Source of the DNA: Dactylosporangium siamense
GTDB lineage: Bacteria > Actinomycetota > Actinomycetes > Mycobacteriales > Micromonosporaceae
Length of the DNA stretch: 56,202 nt
Direction: 5' to 3'
NCBI RefSeq assembly: GCF_016862795.1
Contig: NZ_BONQ01000144.1
Location: forward strand, 1-56,202
The notes beneath the pieces are model-generated. The model did not search any database. It saw only the letters and a list, made by a program, of their open reading frames with translations, and was not told the DNA's origin. The stretch's first letter is position 1, and each line of letters opens with the position of its first letter. A program made the translations under genes and the position numbers. Positions 8,098-42,007 of the stretch are shown here, in pieces.

Positions 8098-9545
8098 CCG
8101 TCATCGGCGCCGGCGTCGGCGGCCTCGCCACGGCGGCCCGGCTCGCCGCCGCCGGCCACCGCGTCACCGTGTTCGAGCAGGCGGCCGCGGCGGGCGGCAA
8201 GCTCGGCCGGCACGAGCGGGTCACCACCGCCGGCACGTTCCGGTTCGACACCGGGCCCAGCCTGTTCACGCTGCCGCAGGTGGCCGCGGAGCTGTTCGCG
8301 CACACCGGCGGCCCCGCCCCCGAGCTGGATCTGGTCGCGTTGGATCCGCTGGTACGGCACTGCTTCCCCGACGGCACGACCCTGGACTCGTGTGCCGGGG
8401 CCGGCTTCGCCGACCGGATCGCGGCGGCGTTCGGCCCGGCGGCGGCCGAGGACTGGCGGCGGCTGTGGCGGCGCGCCGGCCGCGTCTGGGAGACCTCGTG
8501 GCGGCACGTCCTCACCGCCCCGGTGGACGGCCCGCTGCAGCTGGCCGGCCTGGCGTGGCGGCTGCGCGACCTGGCCGCGATCGCGCCCGGCCGGACGCTG
8601 CGCGGCCTGGGCCGCCGGCACCTGCGGGACCCCCGGCTGCGGATGCTCCTGGACCGTTACGCCACCTACACGGGCGCCGACCCGCGCCGGGCTCCGGCCG
8701 CGCTGCTCGCGATCCCCTACGCGGAGCTGGAGTTCGGCGGCTGGTACCTGCGCGGCGGCCTCGGCACCCTCGCCGACGCCCTCCTCAGCCGCTGCGCCGC
8801 GCTCGGCGTCACCGTCCACCTCGGCACAGCGGTCGGGTCCGTCCTCGTGGAGGGCTCCCGGGCCGCCGGGGTCGTCCTCGCCGACGGCACCGTGGTCCGG
8901 AGCGACCTGGTCGTCGCCAACGCCGACGCGCTGCACGTGTACCGCGACCTGCTGCCGGCACCACGCCGGGCGGCCGCCCTGGAGCAGCGCAGCCTCGGCG
9001 GGTTCGTCCTGCTGCTCGGGGTCCGCGGCGCGACCCCGAGGCTGGCGCACCACACGGTGTTCTTCCCACGGGACTACGACGCAGAGTTCGACGCGATCTT
9101 CGGCGCCCCGGCCCGCCCGCCGGACGACCCCGCGGTGTTCGTCACGTCGGCCGGCGACCCCAGCGCCCGCCCGGACGGCCACGAGGCATGGTTCGTCCTG
9201 GTCAACGCGCCGCCGCAGGGAGCCTTCGACTGGCGCGCGCCCGGCGTCGCCGAGGGCTACGCGGACCGGGTCCTCGCCGTGCTCGCCGACCGGGGGGTCG
9301 ACGTGCGGGACCGGCTGCTGTTCCGCGACGTGCTGACCCCCGCGGACCTGGAGACGGCGACCCGCTCCCCCGGCGGCGCGATCTACGGCACCGCCAGCCA
9401 CGGCCTCACCGGCCTGCTCCGGCCCCCGACCCGGGGCGCGGTCCGGGACCTGTTCCTGGTCGGCGGGTCCGTGCACCCCGGCGGTGGCCTGCCCCTGGTG
9501 ATGCTGTCCGCGAAGATCGTCGCCGATCGGATCGGCCCTGCGTAA
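8085..9545 (+). CDS. Phytoene desaturase-family carotenoid oxidoreductase
   Basis: A 486-residue FAD enzyme of the CrtI/CrtN/CrtD family. The N-terminal dinucleotide-binding motif (VIGAGVGGLATAARLAAAGH) and the C-terminal FAD motif (LFLVGGSVHPGGGLPLVMLSAK) are both intact. With a CruF-like hydratase and a CrtA-like monooxygenase in the same run, a CrtD-type 3,4-desaturation of a hydroxylated carotenoid is as likely as phytoene desaturation. The ATG at 8085 has GGAAGGGA upstream. This is the last gene of the overlapping run; no hairpin was seen in the 186-bp gap that follows. Confidence 0.87.
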   Translation: MATVTVIGAGVGGLATAARLAAAGHRVTVFEQAAAAGGKLGRHERVTTAGTFRFDTGPSLFTLPQVAAELFAHTGGPAPELDLVALDPLVRHCFPDGTTLDSCAGAGFADRIAAAFGPAAAEDWRRLWRRAGRVWETSWRHVLTAPVDGPLQLAGLAWRLRDLAAIAPGRTLRGLGRRHLRDPRLRMLLDRYATYTGADPRRAPAALLAIPYAELEFGGWYLRGGLGTLADALLSRCAALGVTVHLGTAVGSVLVEGSRAAGVVLADGTVVRSDLVVANADALHVYRDLLPAPRRAAALEQRSLGGFVLLLGVRGATPRLAHHTVFFPRDYDAEFDAIFGAPARPPDDPAVFVTSAGDPSARPDGHEAWFVLVNAPPQGAFDWRAPGVAEGYADRVLAVLADRGVDVRDRLLFRDVLTPADLETATRSPGGAIYGTASHGLTGLLRPPTRGAVRDLFLVGGSVHPGGGLPLVMLSAKIVADRIGPA

Positions 9546-21740: not shown

Positions 21741-24180
<2,440 letters not shown>

Positions 24181-34173: not shown

Positions 34174-35463
34174 TCAGTGGTCGCCGCTGAGGTGCGCCAG
34201 CATGGCCTGGTTGGCCTCCCAGCCGTCGGGGAACCGGACCGGGACGTTGAGATGGACCGGCTCGGCGGACGGGTGGGTGTCGAGAAGCTCGGCGATGCCG
34301 GCCCTGGCCACGACCACGCACGCGTGCCGGTGCCGCGAGGCGAGCACGCACAGGCGGCCCGCTTCGAGGTGGAAGGCGCTCGCGTCGCGGCGGCCGGACA
34401 GCGGGTGCAGGATGACGGTGACGTCGTACTCGCGGCCCTGCAGGCGGTTCGCGGTGTCGACGGTGACGTCGGCGGCGACCGTGCCGGCCAGGGCCTGGCG
34501 GATCGCGGCGACCTGGTCGCGGTGCGCGGCGCCGACGGCGACCCGGTCGACGGTGACGGGCCGGCCGTCCGGGGCGTGCTCGGAGTAGGCGACCGGGCCG
34601 CGCTGCAGCAGCCGGGTCACCAGGTCGGCGATCGCGGCGACCGCCTCCCGGTCGGTGCGCACCGTGTGCCGGGCCGGCAGTTCGTGCAGCGCCCAGCCGG
34701 TGCGGCGGGCGGTCTCCAGGGTCGCGTCGAGGCCGTGATCGCCGCCGAGCGCCCGGGCGGAGAACTCCAGGCGCCGGTCCGCCGGTTTCGTGCCCGCCTC
34801 GAACGGGGTGAACGGGTAGAACGCCGCCGACACCACGGACGCGGCCGACGGTGGGAGGCGCCACGACACCGGCAGCCGGTGCACGGGCAGGTCCGGGTTG
34901 TGCCGCAGCAGCACCGCGACGGCGCTCTGCATCGGGTCCCAGGACAGGCCCGCCCAGCGTTCCACGGCCACGACCGAGAAGGGGTCGAGCTGGCCCGGGT
35001 CGCCGACGAACAGCGCGCGGGAGAACCGGCCGGCGACACGCAGCAGCATGTCGGAGCGCATCTGGTACGCCTCGTCGACGATCGCCCGCTCCCAGCTGCC
35101 GTCGGTGACGGTGGCCCACTTCGCGGCGGTGCCGATGGTGACGGCGCTGGCGTTCATGTCGCTGACGGCGCCGCTGACGGTGACGGTGCCGTGCTTGACG
35201 ACGCGCTGCGCCGGGACGTAGGTCGACGCGGACAGCCGGCCGATCGCGAGGTTGGGCGCGGCCGTCGCCAGCCGGTCGATGAGGTCGTCGACCTGCTCGT
35301 TGGTCTGCGCGACCACCATCAGCCGTTCGCCGGCCTCGGCGAGGGTACGGGCGGCGCGGACCACGAGGGTCGACTTGCCGGCGCCGGGCGGCGAGTCGAC
35401 GACGACGCCCCGACCGGCGGCGGAACCGAAGTCGCTGAGAATGGACTCGATCACACCGCTCAC
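34174..35463 (-). CDS. SF1B (Upf1/Dna2-like) DNA/RNA helicase, core only
   Basis: A 429-residue helicase reduced to the two RecA domains. Motif I SPPGAGKST (24-32), Ia AQTNEQVDD, II VDEAY (129-133), III VGDPGQLDPF (153-162), IV SWRLP, V DTANRLQGREYDVTVI (336-351), and VI ASRHRHA (375-381) are all visible. This set fits the Upf1/Dna2 branch of superfamily 1. The usual 1B beta-barrel insertion is absent; a candidate barrel is at the end of the protein encoded just upstream. It is the last gene of a four-gene unit with a Fe-S nuclease. Confidence 0.88.
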   Translation of the reverse strand: MSGVIESILSDFGSAAGRGVVVDSPPGAGKSTLVVRAARTLAEAGERLMVVAQTNEQVDDLIDRLATAAPNLAIGRLSASTYVPAQRVVKHGTVTVSGAVSDMNASAVTIGTAAKWATVTDGSWERAIVDEAYQMRSDMLLRVAGRFSRALFVGDPGQLDPFSVVAVERWAGLSWDPMQSAVAVLLRHNPDLPVHRLPVSWRLPPSAASVVSAAFYPFTPFEAGTKPADRRLEFSARALGGDHGLDATLETARRTGWALHELPARHTVRTDREAVAAIADLVTRLLQRGPVAYSEHAPDGRPVTVDRVAVGAAHRDQVAAIRQALAGTVAADVTVDTANRLQGREYDVTVILHPLSGRRDASAFHLEAGRLCVLASRHRHACVVVARAGIAELLDTHPSAEPVHLNVPVRFPDGWEANQAMLAHLSGDH

Positions 35464-35494
35464 GCCGTCACCTCCGCTGCGCTCCGCTGGCCGC

Positions 35495-36979
35495 TCACGA
35501 CCAATCCTCCACGGCGTCGTTGTCGCTCGCGTGATACTCGATGACCGGCGGCGGGCCGCCGTGCGTCCACGGGGTGTCGTCGCGGCTCGGGAAGCGGCCC
35601 GGCGGCTGGTAGGCGTCGGTGACCGGGCCGTACGTGACGCGGTCCCCCACCTCCGGCACCGACCCCGGCGCCGGTTGTTTCGTGGAGCGGCCCATGCCCT
35701 TGGACAGTTCGAGGACGACGTCCACGCTGGACACCGACACGACCGTCGCCTGCTGGGCGAGGCGGGCCGGGGACACCAGGTGCGCGCCCGGCTCCAGGCG
35801 CACCGGGTCGTCGGTCTGCACCGTGATGTGCGGGCGCAGCGCCGCCTTCTTGCCCGACGTGTCGACCCGGTTCGGCGACGCGGCGACGACGGTGCCGGTG
35901 AACGCCTCCCCCGACAGCCGGAACTCGGCCATCACGAGGGGGTCGTCGAGGGCCCGTTGCGCGTCGTAGCGGGCCTGTTCGCGTTCGAGCCGGTCGAGCC
36001 GGCCGGCGGCGGCGACGGCGCTGTCCCGCCGGGGCTGCGGCAGCGCGGTCCCCTCGGCCAGGGCCATGTGGTACATGGTGAACACGTCGCGGTCCATCGC
36101 CCAGCGGGTCTCGACGGACGCGCCGGCCGGCCGGGTCCGCAGCAACCGGACCGCCTGCCAGGTCAGGTCCCAGGTGGGCCGCATCTGGTCGGCGACGGCG
36201 GCGGTGAGCGCGGCGAGCGCCCGTTCGCGGGCGAAGTCGTCAATCGAGCGGGCGACGGCGGCCAGGGCCGGGGCGAGGATCTCGTTGTCGAAGGTCGGGT
36301 CGGTGCTCGGCCCGGCCGGCGGGGAACGCAGCGGGTCCTCGGCCAGGGCCGCGGCGCCGGCGCCGTCGAGGTCGCCGGGCGGGTCGATCCACCCGAGCAG
36401 CGCGGCGAGGTTGGCGTCCTCCAGGCCGCTCTGCCCGGTCGCCCAGTGCTCGCTGAGCACCGACGTCATGGCGAGCAGCATCGAGGAGCCGGGGTGGTCG
36501 GCGCGTTCCCGCAGGAACGTCAGCCACTGCCCGAGGATCGGCACGGTGCGGTGCACCGGGTACGGGCCGAACGGCCGGCGGAACCGGGTGGAGCGGCCCA
36601 GCAGCCGCACGAACTCGACGCCGCCCCGGTTCGGCACGATGACCTGGGGCGCTTCGGCGTAGCGTAGTTTCGTGCCACCGGCGCCGGTGTCGACGCTGCG
36701 GGCGCACCCGTCCACGTAGGACAGCACGACCCGGGCCAGCTCGGCGACGAAGTCGAAGCGCTGGGTGCGGTCGCGGGGGTTGGCCACGACGAGCAGCCGT
36801 GGCTCGCCGGGGTCGGTGCCGACGATCGCGGCCAGGGGCGCGGCGGCCTCACCGGCGAGGCTGAGCGGCACCAGGACCAGCGGCCGCTCGGCGACATGGG
36901 TGTGCCGGACCGTCGTCAGGGGCTGGGCTCTGCCCGACTCGACTGCCTCGGCCCGCGCCAGCGCGGTCAGGATGCTCAC
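35495..36979 (-). CDS. Helicase-associated protein with putative beta-barrel domain
   Basis: A 494-residue protein that I cannot assign to a named family. Residues 1-320 are mixed alpha/beta and helical. Residues about 320-345 form a charged helix, and about 355-430 a strand-rich stretch (FTGTVVAAS, RPHITVQTD, LEPGAHLVSP, ATVVSVSSVDVVLEL). That helix-then-barrel pattern resembles the stalk and 1B barrel of Upf1/Dna2 helicases, which the next gene lacks. It ends 31 bp before the helicase start. The function as a helicase subunit is inference. Confidence 0.72.
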   Translation of the reverse strand: MSILTALARAEAVESGRAQPLTTVRHTHVAERPLVLVPLSLAGEAAAPLAAIVGTDPGEPRLLVVANPRDRTQRFDFVAELARVVLSYVDGCARSVDTGAGGTKLRYAEAPQVIVPNRGGVEFVRLLGRSTRFRRPFGPYPVHRTVPILGQWLTFLRERADHPGSSMLLAMTSVLSEHWATGQSGLEDANLAALLGWIDPPGDLDGAGAAALAEDPLRSPPAGPSTDPTFDNEILAPALAAVARSIDDFARERALAALTAAVADQMRPTWDLTWQAVRLLRTRPAGASVETRWAMDRDVFTMYHMALAEGTALPQPRRDSAVAAAGRLDRLEREQARYDAQRALDDPLVMAEFRLSGEAFTGTVVAASPNRVDTSGKKAALRPHITVQTDDPVRLEPGAHLVSPARLAQQATVVSVSSVDVVLELSKGMGRSTKQPAPGSVPEVGDRVTYGPVTDAYQPPGRFPSRDDTPWTHGGPPPVIEYHASDNDAVEDWS

Positions 36980-37059
36980 GGCGCCGGCTCACTGCGCTCA
37001 CCGGCACCGCGAGGCACGAGGCGCTGCAACATGGTTCGCTCGCTCCGCTCACTCACGTG

Positions 37060-38187
37060 TCAGCCGATGCCGTCGAGGCACTCGGTGCGCAGCTTGTGCG
37101 CGAAGCGCAACAGGCCGGCGATCTCCTCCTGGCCGGCGCCCGGCGTCAGCGTCCCCCGGGCCAGCCCGAGGACGGTGCCGATGCTCTCCACGCCGCCGAG
37201 GTCGTCCCGGACCGACCGGCCGAGGGCGGACGTCGACCCGGCCGACTCGTCCCGGCAGAAGAACGCCATCTCGCACGTGCCGAGGCAGTCCGGGCTGTAC
37301 CGGGCGTCGATCGTGCTGACCGCCTTGCGCAGCTCGTCGGCGGGGCGGGTGGCCTGCTGGTCGCTGTCGTAGGCGAGGTCGAAGGACAGCCCCGCCGGCA
37401 GCGCGTCGAGGATCGACTCCAGGCGGGTGAGCCGGGACAGCTGCCGCCGCAGGACGGTCAGCTGCTTGCGCACGTCGACGAGGGTGGCGGTGGGCCGGTT
37501 GGCGAAGTTCTCCGGGCAGACGAGCACCACGTCGTGCGACACCGACTCCGGCGGGTGGCCGAGCTCGGCGAGCAGCTCGCGCATCGCCATGACGTACACC
37601 GCGGACTGGGTCGCGGCGGCGGCGGTCTTGCCCGGGTCGGCCTGACCGTCGATGACCGCGAACGACTTGATCTCCACGACGTGGAACTTGCCGCCGGCCC
37701 GGAACGCGATGAGGTCGGGCTCCAGGTACGCGTAGTAGCCCGCGATCTCCAGCCGCAGCATCGGGTGGTCGAAGAGCGTCCCCGCGTCGTCCCGCTCCGA
37801 CGCGGCCCGGGCGAGGAGCGCCTTCGTGCGGGCGTACCGGACCTCGCGGCTGGCGTTGCCGCCGACGTTGGACAGGTCGTCGTAGGCGACCTCGGGGATC
37901 GCCAGGCCGAGCCGGTCCCGCAGCAGCTGCAGCAGCTCGGCGGCGCCGTCGGCCTTCACCTGCGCCTCGAACGCGTTGCCGCGGGCGATCGCGAACCGGG
38001 ACTGGCCGAAGCCGGCGGGGAAGCCGAGCTGCCCGGCGACGGCGCCCTTGTTGACCCCGGCGGCGTCCATCAGCCCACGGCGGCCGCACCCGGGGTTGCT
38101 GGTGAGGGCCGCGATGGTGCGCGCGTTGTGGTTGCGCGGCGCCACCGTGCCGCGGATGCGGTCCAACCGGTCGACCAGTGGGTCCAT
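37060..38187 (-). CDS. RecB/Cas4-type PD-(D/E)XK nuclease with 4-Cys Fe-S site
   Basis: A 375-residue nuclease. C34 lies in NPGCGRRGLM, the Cys-x-Arg-Arg pattern at the front of Cas4, AddB and Dna2 nucleases. Active-site motifs follow: RGNAFE (69-74), D158 in EPDLIAF, E172-I-K174 in VVEIKSF, and Q194-x3-Y198. Near the end C301, C305 and C311 complete the likely 4Fe-4S ligands, with C-x3-C instead of the common C-x2-C. It should cut or resect DNA ends. ATG 38187 is 34 bp after the upstream gene; 80 bp separate it from the next. Confidence 0.87.
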   Translation of the reverse strand: MDPLVDRLDRIRGTVAPRNHNARTIAALTSNPGCGRRGLMDAAGVNKGAVAGQLGFPAGFGQSRFAIARGNAFEAQVKADGAAELLQLLRDRLGLAIPEVAYDDLSNVGGNASREVRYARTKALLARAASERDDAGTLFDHPMLRLEIAGYYAYLEPDLIAFRAGGKFHVVEIKSFAVIDGQADPGKTAAAATQSAVYVMAMRELLAELGHPPESVSHDVVLVCPENFANRPTATLVDVRKQLTVLRRQLSRLTRLESILDALPAGLSFDLAYDSDQQATRPADELRKAVSTIDARYSPDCLGTCEMAFFCRDESAGSTSALGRSVRDDLGGVESIGTVLGLARGTLTPGAGQEEIAGLLRFAHKLRTECLDGIG

Positions 38188-38221
38188 GAGCGGTCTTCTT
38201 TCGGGGAAGAATTTCGCGGTT

Positions 38222-39016
38222 TCACGTCGTGCTCGCGGTACGACGCAGTCGTTGCAGACGGGCTCCGAAGAGCGCTTCGGATCCGTCCAGGCGTTCCTGG
38301 GCCCGACTGGCCGCAGCGGTGCGGTCCGCGGTGTCGGCCTCGAGGTGCACGTCGAGCTCGGCCTGGGCCAGTTCGGCCACGGACGAGGGGGTGATCCCCG
38401 CACTGCCGGCACCGGGGATGCTCGCGGCGAACCGCCACAGCAGCCGCTGGGCGTCGTGCGCGTCCTCGGGCAGCTGCGCCACCCGCTGGGCCACCTTGAT
38501 CGCGCCGATGAGGAAGTCGACGCGGGCGCTGAGCGGTCCGACGACCCTGATCTCCAGGGGCCAGGTGGACAACGCCAGGAGCCCGCGCGCCGGGGACAGC
38601 AGGTCGGCGGTGAGCGCGGGGCACAGGTAGTACGGCCGGCCGAACGGCTGGACGCGGAACGAGCGTTCCTCGTCGCGGCGCAGGCTGGTGAGGCGCGCCG
38701 CGACCAGTTCGCCCGGGAAGAAGGCGTCGTGGACGGCGATGATGAGCTTCGGCGCGGCCGGCACCGTGAGCAGGGTCAGCGCGTGGTGCACCTGCTCACG
38801 GATCGACAGCATCGGCTTGTGCACCGGCTGCGGCGCCGGCCGGGCCTGGTCCTCCAGGTCGGCGAGGGCGTCGTCCCAGGCGTGCTCCGCCTGGCGCAGC
38901 TCGGCCCGGAGTGCTCGGGCCATGGTCCGGTCACCGGTGGTGGCGGCCCGTCGCAGCTCGCCACGCAACCGGTCGATCCGCCGCTCGAGCAGCTCGATGT
39001 GGATCGGTTCGGACAC
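38222..39016 (-). CDS. Unknown protein leading the helicase-nuclease operon
   Basis: A 264-residue protein with no family I recognise. Residues 1-58 form a charged coiled coil (LLERRIDRLRGELRRAATTGDR onward, in heptads). Residues about 68-130 may form a winged helix (SIREQVHHALTLL then AARLTSLRRDEERSF). The C-terminal part is helical. The GTG at 39016 follows a TACCGT -10-like box; two direct TTCCAGCAA copies lie just upstream at about 39035-39056. As first gene of the unit it may recognise DNA or organise the complex. Confidence 0.68.
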   Translation of the reverse strand: MSEPIHIELLERRIDRLRGELRRAATTGDRTMARALRAELRQAEHAWDDALADLEDQARPAPQPVHKPMLSIREQVHHALTLLTVPAAPKLIIAVHDAFFPGELVAARLTSLRRDEERSFRVQPFGRPYYLCPALTADLLSPARGLLALSTWPLEIRVVGPLSARVDFLIGAIKVAQRVAQLPEDAHDAQRLLWRFAASIPGAGSAGITPSSVAELAQAELDVHLEADTADRTAAASRAQERLDGSEALFGARLQRLRRTASTT

Positions 39017-39126
39017 GAACGGCACGGTAGCCGGTTCCAGCAAGTTCCAGCAAAGACCAGTGTCGGCGTGTCGTGTTGCAACTTGCGCTGAAACGGTTCG
39101 CCACTGCTCCTCGATGCGCCGTCGTT

Positions 39127-40819: not shown

Positions 40820-42007
40820 TTAGTCGAGGAGTTCCGTGACCGTGCCGGCGGCGACGGTGCGACCACCCTCGCGGACGGCGAACCCGAGGCCTTCGGCCAT
40901 GGCGACCGGCTTGCCCAGTTCGACCGTCAGGTCGACGGTGTCGCCGGGCATGACCATCGTGACCTCGCCCAGGTCGACCGACCCGACCACGTCCGTGGTC
41001 CGGAAGAAGAACTGCGGCCGGTAGTTGGCGAAGAACGGCGTGTGCCGGCCTCCTTCCTTCGTGGTGAGCGCGTACACGTGGGCGGTGAACCGGCGGTGCG
41101 GCGAGACCGACCCCGGCAGCGCGACGACCTGGCCCCGCTGCACGTCGCCGCGGCGGATGCCGCGCAGCAGCAGCGCCGCGTTGTCGCCCGCCTCGGCCTG
41201 CTCGAGCTGCCGGCCGAACGTCTCCAGGCCGGTCACCACGCTGGACCGGGTGGGGCCCAGCCCGACGACCTCGACCGGGGCGTTGAGCCGCAGCGTGCCG
41301 CGCTCGACCGCGCCGGTGACGACGGTGCCACGCCCGGTGATCGTGAGCACGTTCTCGATCGGCATCAGGAACGGCTCGGCGAGCACCCGGTCGGGCACCG
41401 GGACATACCGGTCGACCGCGTCGAGCAGGTCGAGCACCGACCGCACGCCGGCCGGGTCGCCCTTGAGCGCCCGCAGCGCGGACACCCGGACGACCGGCAC
41501 GTCGTCACCGGGGAACCCGTAGCCGCTGAGCAGCTCGCGGATCTCCAGCTCGATGAGGTCGAGCAGCTCGGCGTCGTCGACCGCGTCGGCCTTGTTCATC
41601 GCCACGACCAGGTGGGGCACGCCGATGCGCCGCGCGAGCAGGACGTGCTCGCGCGTCTGCGGCATGACCCCGTCGACCGCGCTGACCACCAGGATCGCAC
41701 CGTCGACCTGGGCCGCACCGGTGATCATGTTCTTCACGTAGTCGGCGTGGCCGGGCATGTCGACGTGGGCGTAGTGCCTGGTCGCGGTCTCGTACTCGAC
41801 GTGGGCGATGTTGATGGTGATGCCCCGGCTGATCTCCTCCGGCGCCCGGTCGATCCCCTCGAACGAGGTGTACCGGTTGACGGTCGGGTAGCGCTCGGCG
41901 AGCACCTTGGTGATCGCGGCGGTCAGGGTCGTCTTGCCGTGGTCGACGTGACCCATGGTGCCGATGTTGAGGTGGGGTTTGTTCCTCGTGAACGTCTGCT
42001 TGGCCAT
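40820..42007 (-). CDS. Elongation factor Tu paralogue
   Basis: A 395-residue EF-Tu. GTPase motifs are GHVDHGKT (19-26), RGITI (61-65), DMPGH (83-87) and NKAD (138-141). Canonical bacterial EF-Tu reads DCPGH and NKCD, so both Cys are replaced (Met, Ala). Domains 2 and 3 are full length, ending in [16 protein letters not shown]. The gene stands alone, not beside fusA and rpsG, and so is probably a second copy like the divergent tuf genes of Streptomyces. GTP-dependent delivery of aminoacyl-tRNA is expected. It has its own promoter and a leader of about 200 bases. Confidence 0.92.

Follow-up and report, generated by a model that had tools for sequence, protein, structure and literature searches.

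An actinobacterial operon with a predicted Fe-S nuclease, a bare SF1B helicase and a protein of a new family: a probable divided counterpart of single-chain Dna2/Bad-class enzymes

Description

The window analysed here is a 56,202-nucleotide stretch of DNA from Dactylosporangium siamense (NCBI RefSeq assembly GCF_016862795.1, contig NZ_BONQ01000144.1, positions 1 to 56,202 of the forward strand) that holds four co-directional genes, named A, B, C and D in order of transcription (Table 1). All four lie on the minus strand and are separated by gaps of 34, 80 and 31 bp; this layout confirms the four-gene operon that a first-pass annotation, made from the sequence of the window, had described as a disassembled Dna2 nuclease-helicase. 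Elsewhere in the text, loci compared with the window carry L numbers and genomes G numbers. Genes outside annotated records were called with our own codon-usage caller, and the genus names of some genomes were inferred (f4/g8 as Streptomyces, g2 and g246 as the Micromonospora form).

Table 1. Positions and properties of the operon genes and of the block upstream of gene A.
Feature	Position	Strand	Description
Gene A	38222..39016	-	264 aa, GTG start; coiled-coil-like N-terminus judged by eye; optional member
Gene B	37060..38187	-	375 aa RecB/Cas4-type PD-(D/E)XK nuclease; C34, C301-x3-C305-x5-C311 iron-sulfur (Fe-S) pattern; active site complete
Gene C	35495..36979	-	494 aa, new family; C-terminus by propensity a long helix followed by a strand-rich segment; TPWTHGGPP conserved, acidic tail
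Gene D	34174..35463	-	429 aa bare superfamily 1B (SF1B; Upf1/Dna2-type) helicase core; AAA_11/AAA_12/AAA_30
Block upstream of A	39031..39073	-	two TTGCTGGAAC-like direct repeats; kept in 6/7 aligned Dactylosporangium loci

Proteins A, B and C have no reliable assignment in Pfam, NCBIfam or PADLOC. Against the PADLOC 2.0.0 system models A, B and C gave no match at E 1 and D gave partial matches to helicase parts only, and PDB profile searches with A, B and C returned only weak or repeat-type matches, which were taken as chance. No published description of the operon was found in the open-licence literature. The nearest relatives of the window genome in a species-genome scan with B are other Dactylosporangium, and the ratio of nonsynonymous to synonymous substitution rates (dN/dS) within the genus is 0.15-0.28 (two species compared with the window).

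B is a RecB-family nuclease in which four cysteines, predicted to hold a Fe-S cluster, span the domain. As the first-pass annotation had read them, C34, C301, C305 and C311 accompany a full set of active-site motifs: the cysteines are kept without exception in two alignments, one of 20 rows and one of 21 rows that extends to 29% identity, and the RecB-type residues E74, D158, E172-x-K174, Q194 and Y198 of the window protein are invariant across the 20 rows of the first. Of 20 family members, one is matched by Pfam PDDEXK_1 (E 0.0014). Among 114 homologues of B, some of which come from the same genome or contig and are thus not all independent, C301, C305 and C311 occur in every protein and C34 in all 112 that have the column; the two homologues missing C34 alone (L110, L182) do so probably because their called gene start is short. 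All ten key residues are retained in 103 of the 114, the window protein included.

D has the motifs of an SF1B helicase of the Upf1/Dna2 type. An alignment of 15 rows shows no variation in DEAYQ, GDPGQLDPF and VDTANRLQG; a 15-row profile finds SMUBP-2, DNA2 and UPF1 as its best matches in the PDB; and in Pfam the protein matches AAA_11/AAA_12, with UvrD_C_2 reached only at E 0.12. Its Walker A motif, PPGAGKS, begins at residue 25, which leaves no room before motif I for a stalk and barrel, in agreement with the earlier view of D as a bare core.

Judged by these searches, C is a new protein family. By a crude propensity profile, residues from about 320 to 359 are predicted as helix and 360-450 as strands, in line with the earlier description of a C-terminal helix followed by a strand-rich segment, and it is plausible that C holds a stalk and a 1B barrel. 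Pfam barrel families do not match C. In a profile comparison its C-terminus aligned with the stalk/barrel region of single-chain enzymes better than 60 of 60 shuffles, at a probability of only about 1% over 30 columns.

The block upstream of A is a probable promoter or operator. In D. vinaceum (L006, about 9133-9162) a nearly identical block is reverse-complemented, with TGGT/ACCA at its bounds, and by eye it resembles a small inversion.

Linkage and distribution

When B was used as a query on species genomes, the best 80 of 118 confirmed loci were kept, all of them from Actinomycetota by title. C lies beside B in all 80 and D is also present in 60; A, B, C and D occur together, in the same order and on one strand, in 56 of the 80, and the linkage of the four genes is far beyond chance. 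D is missing from 20 loci: five of them (L026, L050, L054, L061, L068) break off no more than 2 bp from C, and the remaining 15 are a chromosomal form found in Micromonospora, in which B and C stand as a pair. Overlaps of 4 bp are frequent between A and B (42/60) and between B and C (37/80), and occur between C and D in 16 of 60.

A survey of 121 Micromonosporaceae genomes found B, C and D in 71 each and all three in 70, with D counted at E <= 1e-50; for co-occurrence of C with D the Fisher p is ~1e-31, uncorrected for relatedness. The two discordant genomes look like assembly or contig edges: the C match of G419 has the coordinates of L054 and lies 2 bp from the end of the contig, and in G488 the contig has only three bases before the D match, which starts at base 4. 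D lies 34-65 kb from the B-C pair in six compared genomes (G204, G439, G476, G404, G442, G462), which belong to two genera with the Micromonospora form, and none of them has lost a component. A is present in 34 of the 121 genomes. The expectation that the four genes travel together thus stands for B, C and D, with A as an optional member. In two genomes with D apart from B-C (L174, L178), a DarG-like macro-domain protein was seen within the 20-kb stretch around D.

The ABCD unit is found in many gene neighbourhoods, and in a broader sample C was present in 14 of 396 Actinomycetota genomes. A tree built from 53 C proteins places a second Dactylosporangium copy with Virgisporangium (support 100/99) and an island copy of Micromonospora CB01531 with Paractinoplanes (100/100); three long branches were flagged elsewhere in the tree. 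These groupings across genera indicate that the operon moves between lineages.

Fusions and plasmid modules

Four genomes carry a natural fusion of B and C of 701-747 residues followed by D (L165, L169, L171, L173). Called proteins of the loci examined include B-C fusions only, with no complete B-C-D fusion among them.

The converse arrangement occurs on plasmids. D-like helicases with 31-36% identity to D are preceded by a C homologue of about 400 residues in Rhodococcus, Mycobacterium, Mycolicibacterium, Xylanimonas and Cellulosimicrobium; a four-row profile of this C-like protein aligns with C at an hhalign probability of 94.5 (E 8e-8, 349 columns). For a count of this arrangement, 38 plasmid records were drawn from the listed D-like matches, mainly of Rhodococcus and mycobacteria. 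The set leaves aside the matches of Euzebya (whose own C-like gene is in the hhalign profile), Arthrobacter, Pseudarthrobacter and Paenarthrobacter; unlisted records; the low-identity Rhodococcus matches H101 and H102; Embleya, Nonomuraea and two Streptomyces plasmids, which carry a true D; and the rhizobial, Skermanella and archaeal matches. All 38 have a C-like gene. It stands directly before the D-like gene, on the same strand, within 600 bp and without B in 36, and about 1.6 kb from it in the other two. C therefore accompanies the bare helicase in both of these layouts. The arrangement in Paenarthrobacter differs from this module, and phage records contained no match for C, the plasmid C homologue or D.

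The plasmid modules L155, L156, L159 and L160 consist of VWA-like and AAA genes, a small protein in some, and then the C-like and D-like genes. Each of the three plasmid regions viewed has a VWA-like gene upstream, and in two of them the annotation puts an AAA ATPase ahead of it; in the Euzebya module a DNA cytosine methyltransferase lies upstream instead.

Relation to known systems

The Fe-S RecB-type nuclease pattern of B is common to AddAB and Cas4. AddAB motors are of the UvrD type, and membership of the AddAB group was rejected since D matches AAA_11/AAA_12 and not the UvrD type.

A further comparison is with single-chain nuclease-helicases of the TM0106/TIGR03491 type, found in actinobacteria and rhizobia (for example L142, L149, L197-L200). 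Their helicase is homologous to D (hhalign probability 99, E 2e-18, against ten TIGR03491-type chains), their nuclease bears cysteines, and their helicase halves are among the weaker plasmid matches of D. They differ from the operon in being one polypeptide, where the window has separate nuclease and helicase genes, and in a middle region that is not C-like and that we read as RNase H-like. The nuclease is only marginally alignable with B: motif order is alike and the alignment beats 60 of 60 block shuffles, at an hhalign probability of 1-4%. In a Rhizobium johnstonii plasmid (L201:4744-8140) a TM0106-type nuclease and a D-like helicase appear as two overlapping genes, which may reflect a frameshift. 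A two-gene TIGR03491 form considered in L143 was rejected, its second gene having no D-like helicase.

Partner kinds are shared between the two forms in single examples (L149, L197, L199). Jet genes begin at a distance of 151-154 bp, behind D in the Streptomyces plasmids L157 and L158 and behind the single chain in an Arthrobacter plasmid (L197), although the Jet proteins of the two kinds of locus are only distantly alike. An SMC-like ATPase with a small partner stands beside ABCD in L026, L028, L049, L054 and L059 and beside a single chain in L149. SbcCD adjoins ABCD in L019, L057, L059, L108 and L157, and in Mesorhizobium (L199) an SbcD-like exonuclease (E 2e-13) and a large ATPase flank the single-chain enzyme. 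The short flanks of the 13 TIGR03491 loci L142-L154 contained no Jet genes and no SbcCD, and the annotation of L198, L200 and L201, from Rhizobium, lists none of the Jet, SMC-like ATPase pair or SbcCD partners. The ATPase of the pair is SMC/Rad50-like, of about 800 residues, with a partner of about 125 (L059:6262-9023), and its PADLOC resemblance is only to parts such as mad3 and LmuB.

Two characterised enzymes give the same order of parts in one chain. Bad of Geobacillus stearothermophilus is described as having a Fe-S RecB-type nuclease, a middle part of unknown fold and an SF1B helicase last; its distribution is sporadic, and its authors took a methyltransferase neighbour as a hint of restriction (PMC7430649). 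Bad and ABCD are alike in nuclease-first, helicase-last order, in sporadic distribution and in having a methyltransferase neighbour, and differ in that Bad is one chain and ABCD three or four. Eukaryotic DNA2 has a nuclease, a stalk with a beta barrel and helicase domains 1A/2A, and shares its Fe-S cluster with AddB (PMC4716839). Its order of parts is like that of the operon, with the barrel in C only putative; on the same account DNA2 is one chain with an N-terminal OB domain.

Genomic setting

In the window, about 17 kb that includes the operon lies between a paralogue of EF-Tu (at 40823) and the region 22768-24162. This stretch is absent at that place in three of six examined Micromonosporaceae relatives (L206, L207, L208), in which the EF-Tu paralogue is 1-3 kb from homologues of 22768-24162; in the other three (L205, L209, L210) the arrangement was not seen within the fetched stretch. 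The proximity in L206-L208 speaks for an insertion that takes in more than the four genes. The EF-Tu gene itself (40823-42007) is apparently a second, divergent copy; EF-Tu is matched at 1e-150 in 39 of 41 genomes of the family, with two matches in 14.

Neighbours of the operon were compared with PADLOC at 1e-20. From 30 loci outside large conserved contexts, referred to here as mobile copies, 115 of 229 neighbour proteins were scanned and matched 149 families, against 28 for 115 of 206 proteins from 14 random regions; the counts are of families and not of members, the 30 loci were hand-picked, and three of them, all from Nocardia, have neighbours in common. Models of a generic kind, for kinases and helicases, occur in both sets. 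Neighbours of mobile copies include HmaA-like, PprPDDEXK and PprRE genes (L100; the latter two parts of pPIWI-RE), PglW (L182), DarT and DarG, a GmrSD-like gene between C and D (L028), Hhe/PDC-S37-like genes (L049), RhuM between C and D (L031) and the Jet (Wadjet) genes already mentioned. Sampled proteins of L177 and L063 matched no PADLOC family. In L177 (5423-8260) a CHAT-domain protein of 946 residues adjoins the second Dactylosporangium copy of the operon.

Other copies are held in conserved chromosomal contexts. One context is common to 10 of 12 examined f4/g8 loci (presumed Streptomyces), and Micromonospora and Actinomadura keep theirs too. Around nine such loci (f4/g8 L103 and L109; Actinomadura L009, L023 and L045; Micromonospora L071 and L081; Dactylosporangium L005 and L007), 112 neighbour proteins matched two PADLOC families. 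A defence setting is thus well supported for copies in non-conserved places, whereas no link with defence is seen for the conserved copies, to which that of the window belongs; the anticipated enrichment of defence genes applies to the former and not to the latter. A PAP2-like gene before B in f4/g8 genomes was considered as a relative of A and rejected (hhalign probability 0.2).

Interpretation

We consider it probable that B, C and D form a three-subunit Fe-S nuclease-helicase with a function in DNA-end processing, as a divided counterpart of the single-chain Dna2/Bad-class enzymes. That the three are one unit is argued by their co-occurrence even where D lies 34-65 kb away, by the B-C fusions and by the pairing of C with a bare D, and to this extent the split nuclease, linker and helicase of the first-pass annotation hold. 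Because no relationship could be detected between C and the middle region of TIGR03491-type chains, the label Dna2 is better read as the Dna2/Bad class of Fe-S nuclease-helicases.

D would be a motor moving 5' to 3' on single-stranded DNA, a polarity expected from its SF1B family. C would be its obligate partner, probably carrying the stalk/1B-like part that D is without and tying the motor to B, and B would act as a RecB-type nuclease of the iron-staple kind, to which the unwound strand is passed. A is an optional addition to these three and may serve in regulation or DNA binding. The complex would process DNA ends; for the mobile copies the likeliest targets are invading phages and plasmids, whose DNA they would act on together with SbcCD, Wadjet or the SMC-like ATPase.

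Several results weigh against this interpretation. C has no detectable sequence link to a known 1B barrel in Pfam or PDB profile searches; homology of C with the middle region of TIGR03491-type chains was rejected by hhalign, and the alignment of B with their nuclease is marginal. C-D pairs exist without B, and A is present in only 33 of the 71 genomes with C. Partners are seldom held in common: among the 13 TIGR03491 loci the ATPase pair was found only in L149 and a GmrSD-like gene in L147, and the ATPase next to the exonuclease in L199 has no SbcC match. Nine of the 114 B homologues (L100, L165-L169, L171-L173) have arginine in place of the catalytic lysine, together with one or more other altered active-site residues. 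The limits of the PADLOC comparison and the scarcity of defence families around conserved copies count on the same side.

The last of these points bears on a rival account that is less probable than the one above and still carries real weight, in which the operon encodes a chromosomal enzyme of DNA repair or of replication forks in large mycelial actinomycetes and the defence neighbours are secondary, or reflect plasmids and islands that carry repair genes. Since the conserved contexts, with their two PADLOC families, are not defence-like, our preferred explanation is weakened and this one is strengthened, and the SbcCD neighbours are repair proteins as well. A chromosomal repair enzyme fits poorly with a distribution that is patchy both within one family (71 of 121 genomes) and in the sample of the phylum (14 of 396), with the horizontal transfer seen in the C tree, and with PglW, HmaA-like, pPIWI-RE, DarTG, GmrSD-like and Wadjet genes beside other copies.

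It is unlikely that B is mainly a structural or DNA-sensing subunit whose nuclease is dispensable, the core being a motor of C and D. The nine homologues with altered active sites fit that proposal, as they retain the Fe-S cysteines, which persist wherever their columns are present, and so do the plasmid C-D modules; the great majority of homologues, that of the window among them, nevertheless keep every key residue. That the genes are merely co-inherited and work independently, as the separation of D from B-C in Micromonospora-type genomes might suggest, is very improbable in view of the B-C fusions, the near-perfect co-occurrence despite unlinking and the frequent 4-bp overlaps.

Returning to the three-subunit enzyme, we tentatively extend it to a multi-subunit bacterial Dna2-like complex in which C supplies the 1B/stalk part in trans. 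Such a complex might be built as B-C-D, as C-D on plasmids (with VWA and AAA genes) or around an Fe-S subunit that has lost catalysis. Its mobile copies might occupy the slot beside Wadjet or SbcCD that some single chains occupy, so as to give end resection in immunity like that of MRN plus Dna2. Work on DNA2-class enzymes deals with single chains, whose barrel, motor and nuclease are hard to separate. A natural split system, with a nuclease that is swapped or dropped and Fe-S cysteines that are kept after catalysis is lost, would reveal the role of each part. The partners common to the split form and some single-chain forms (Wadjet, the SMC-like ATPase, an SbcD-like exonuclease) hint that Dna2-like end processing may be a recurring helper of SMC-type immunity against plasmids and phages.

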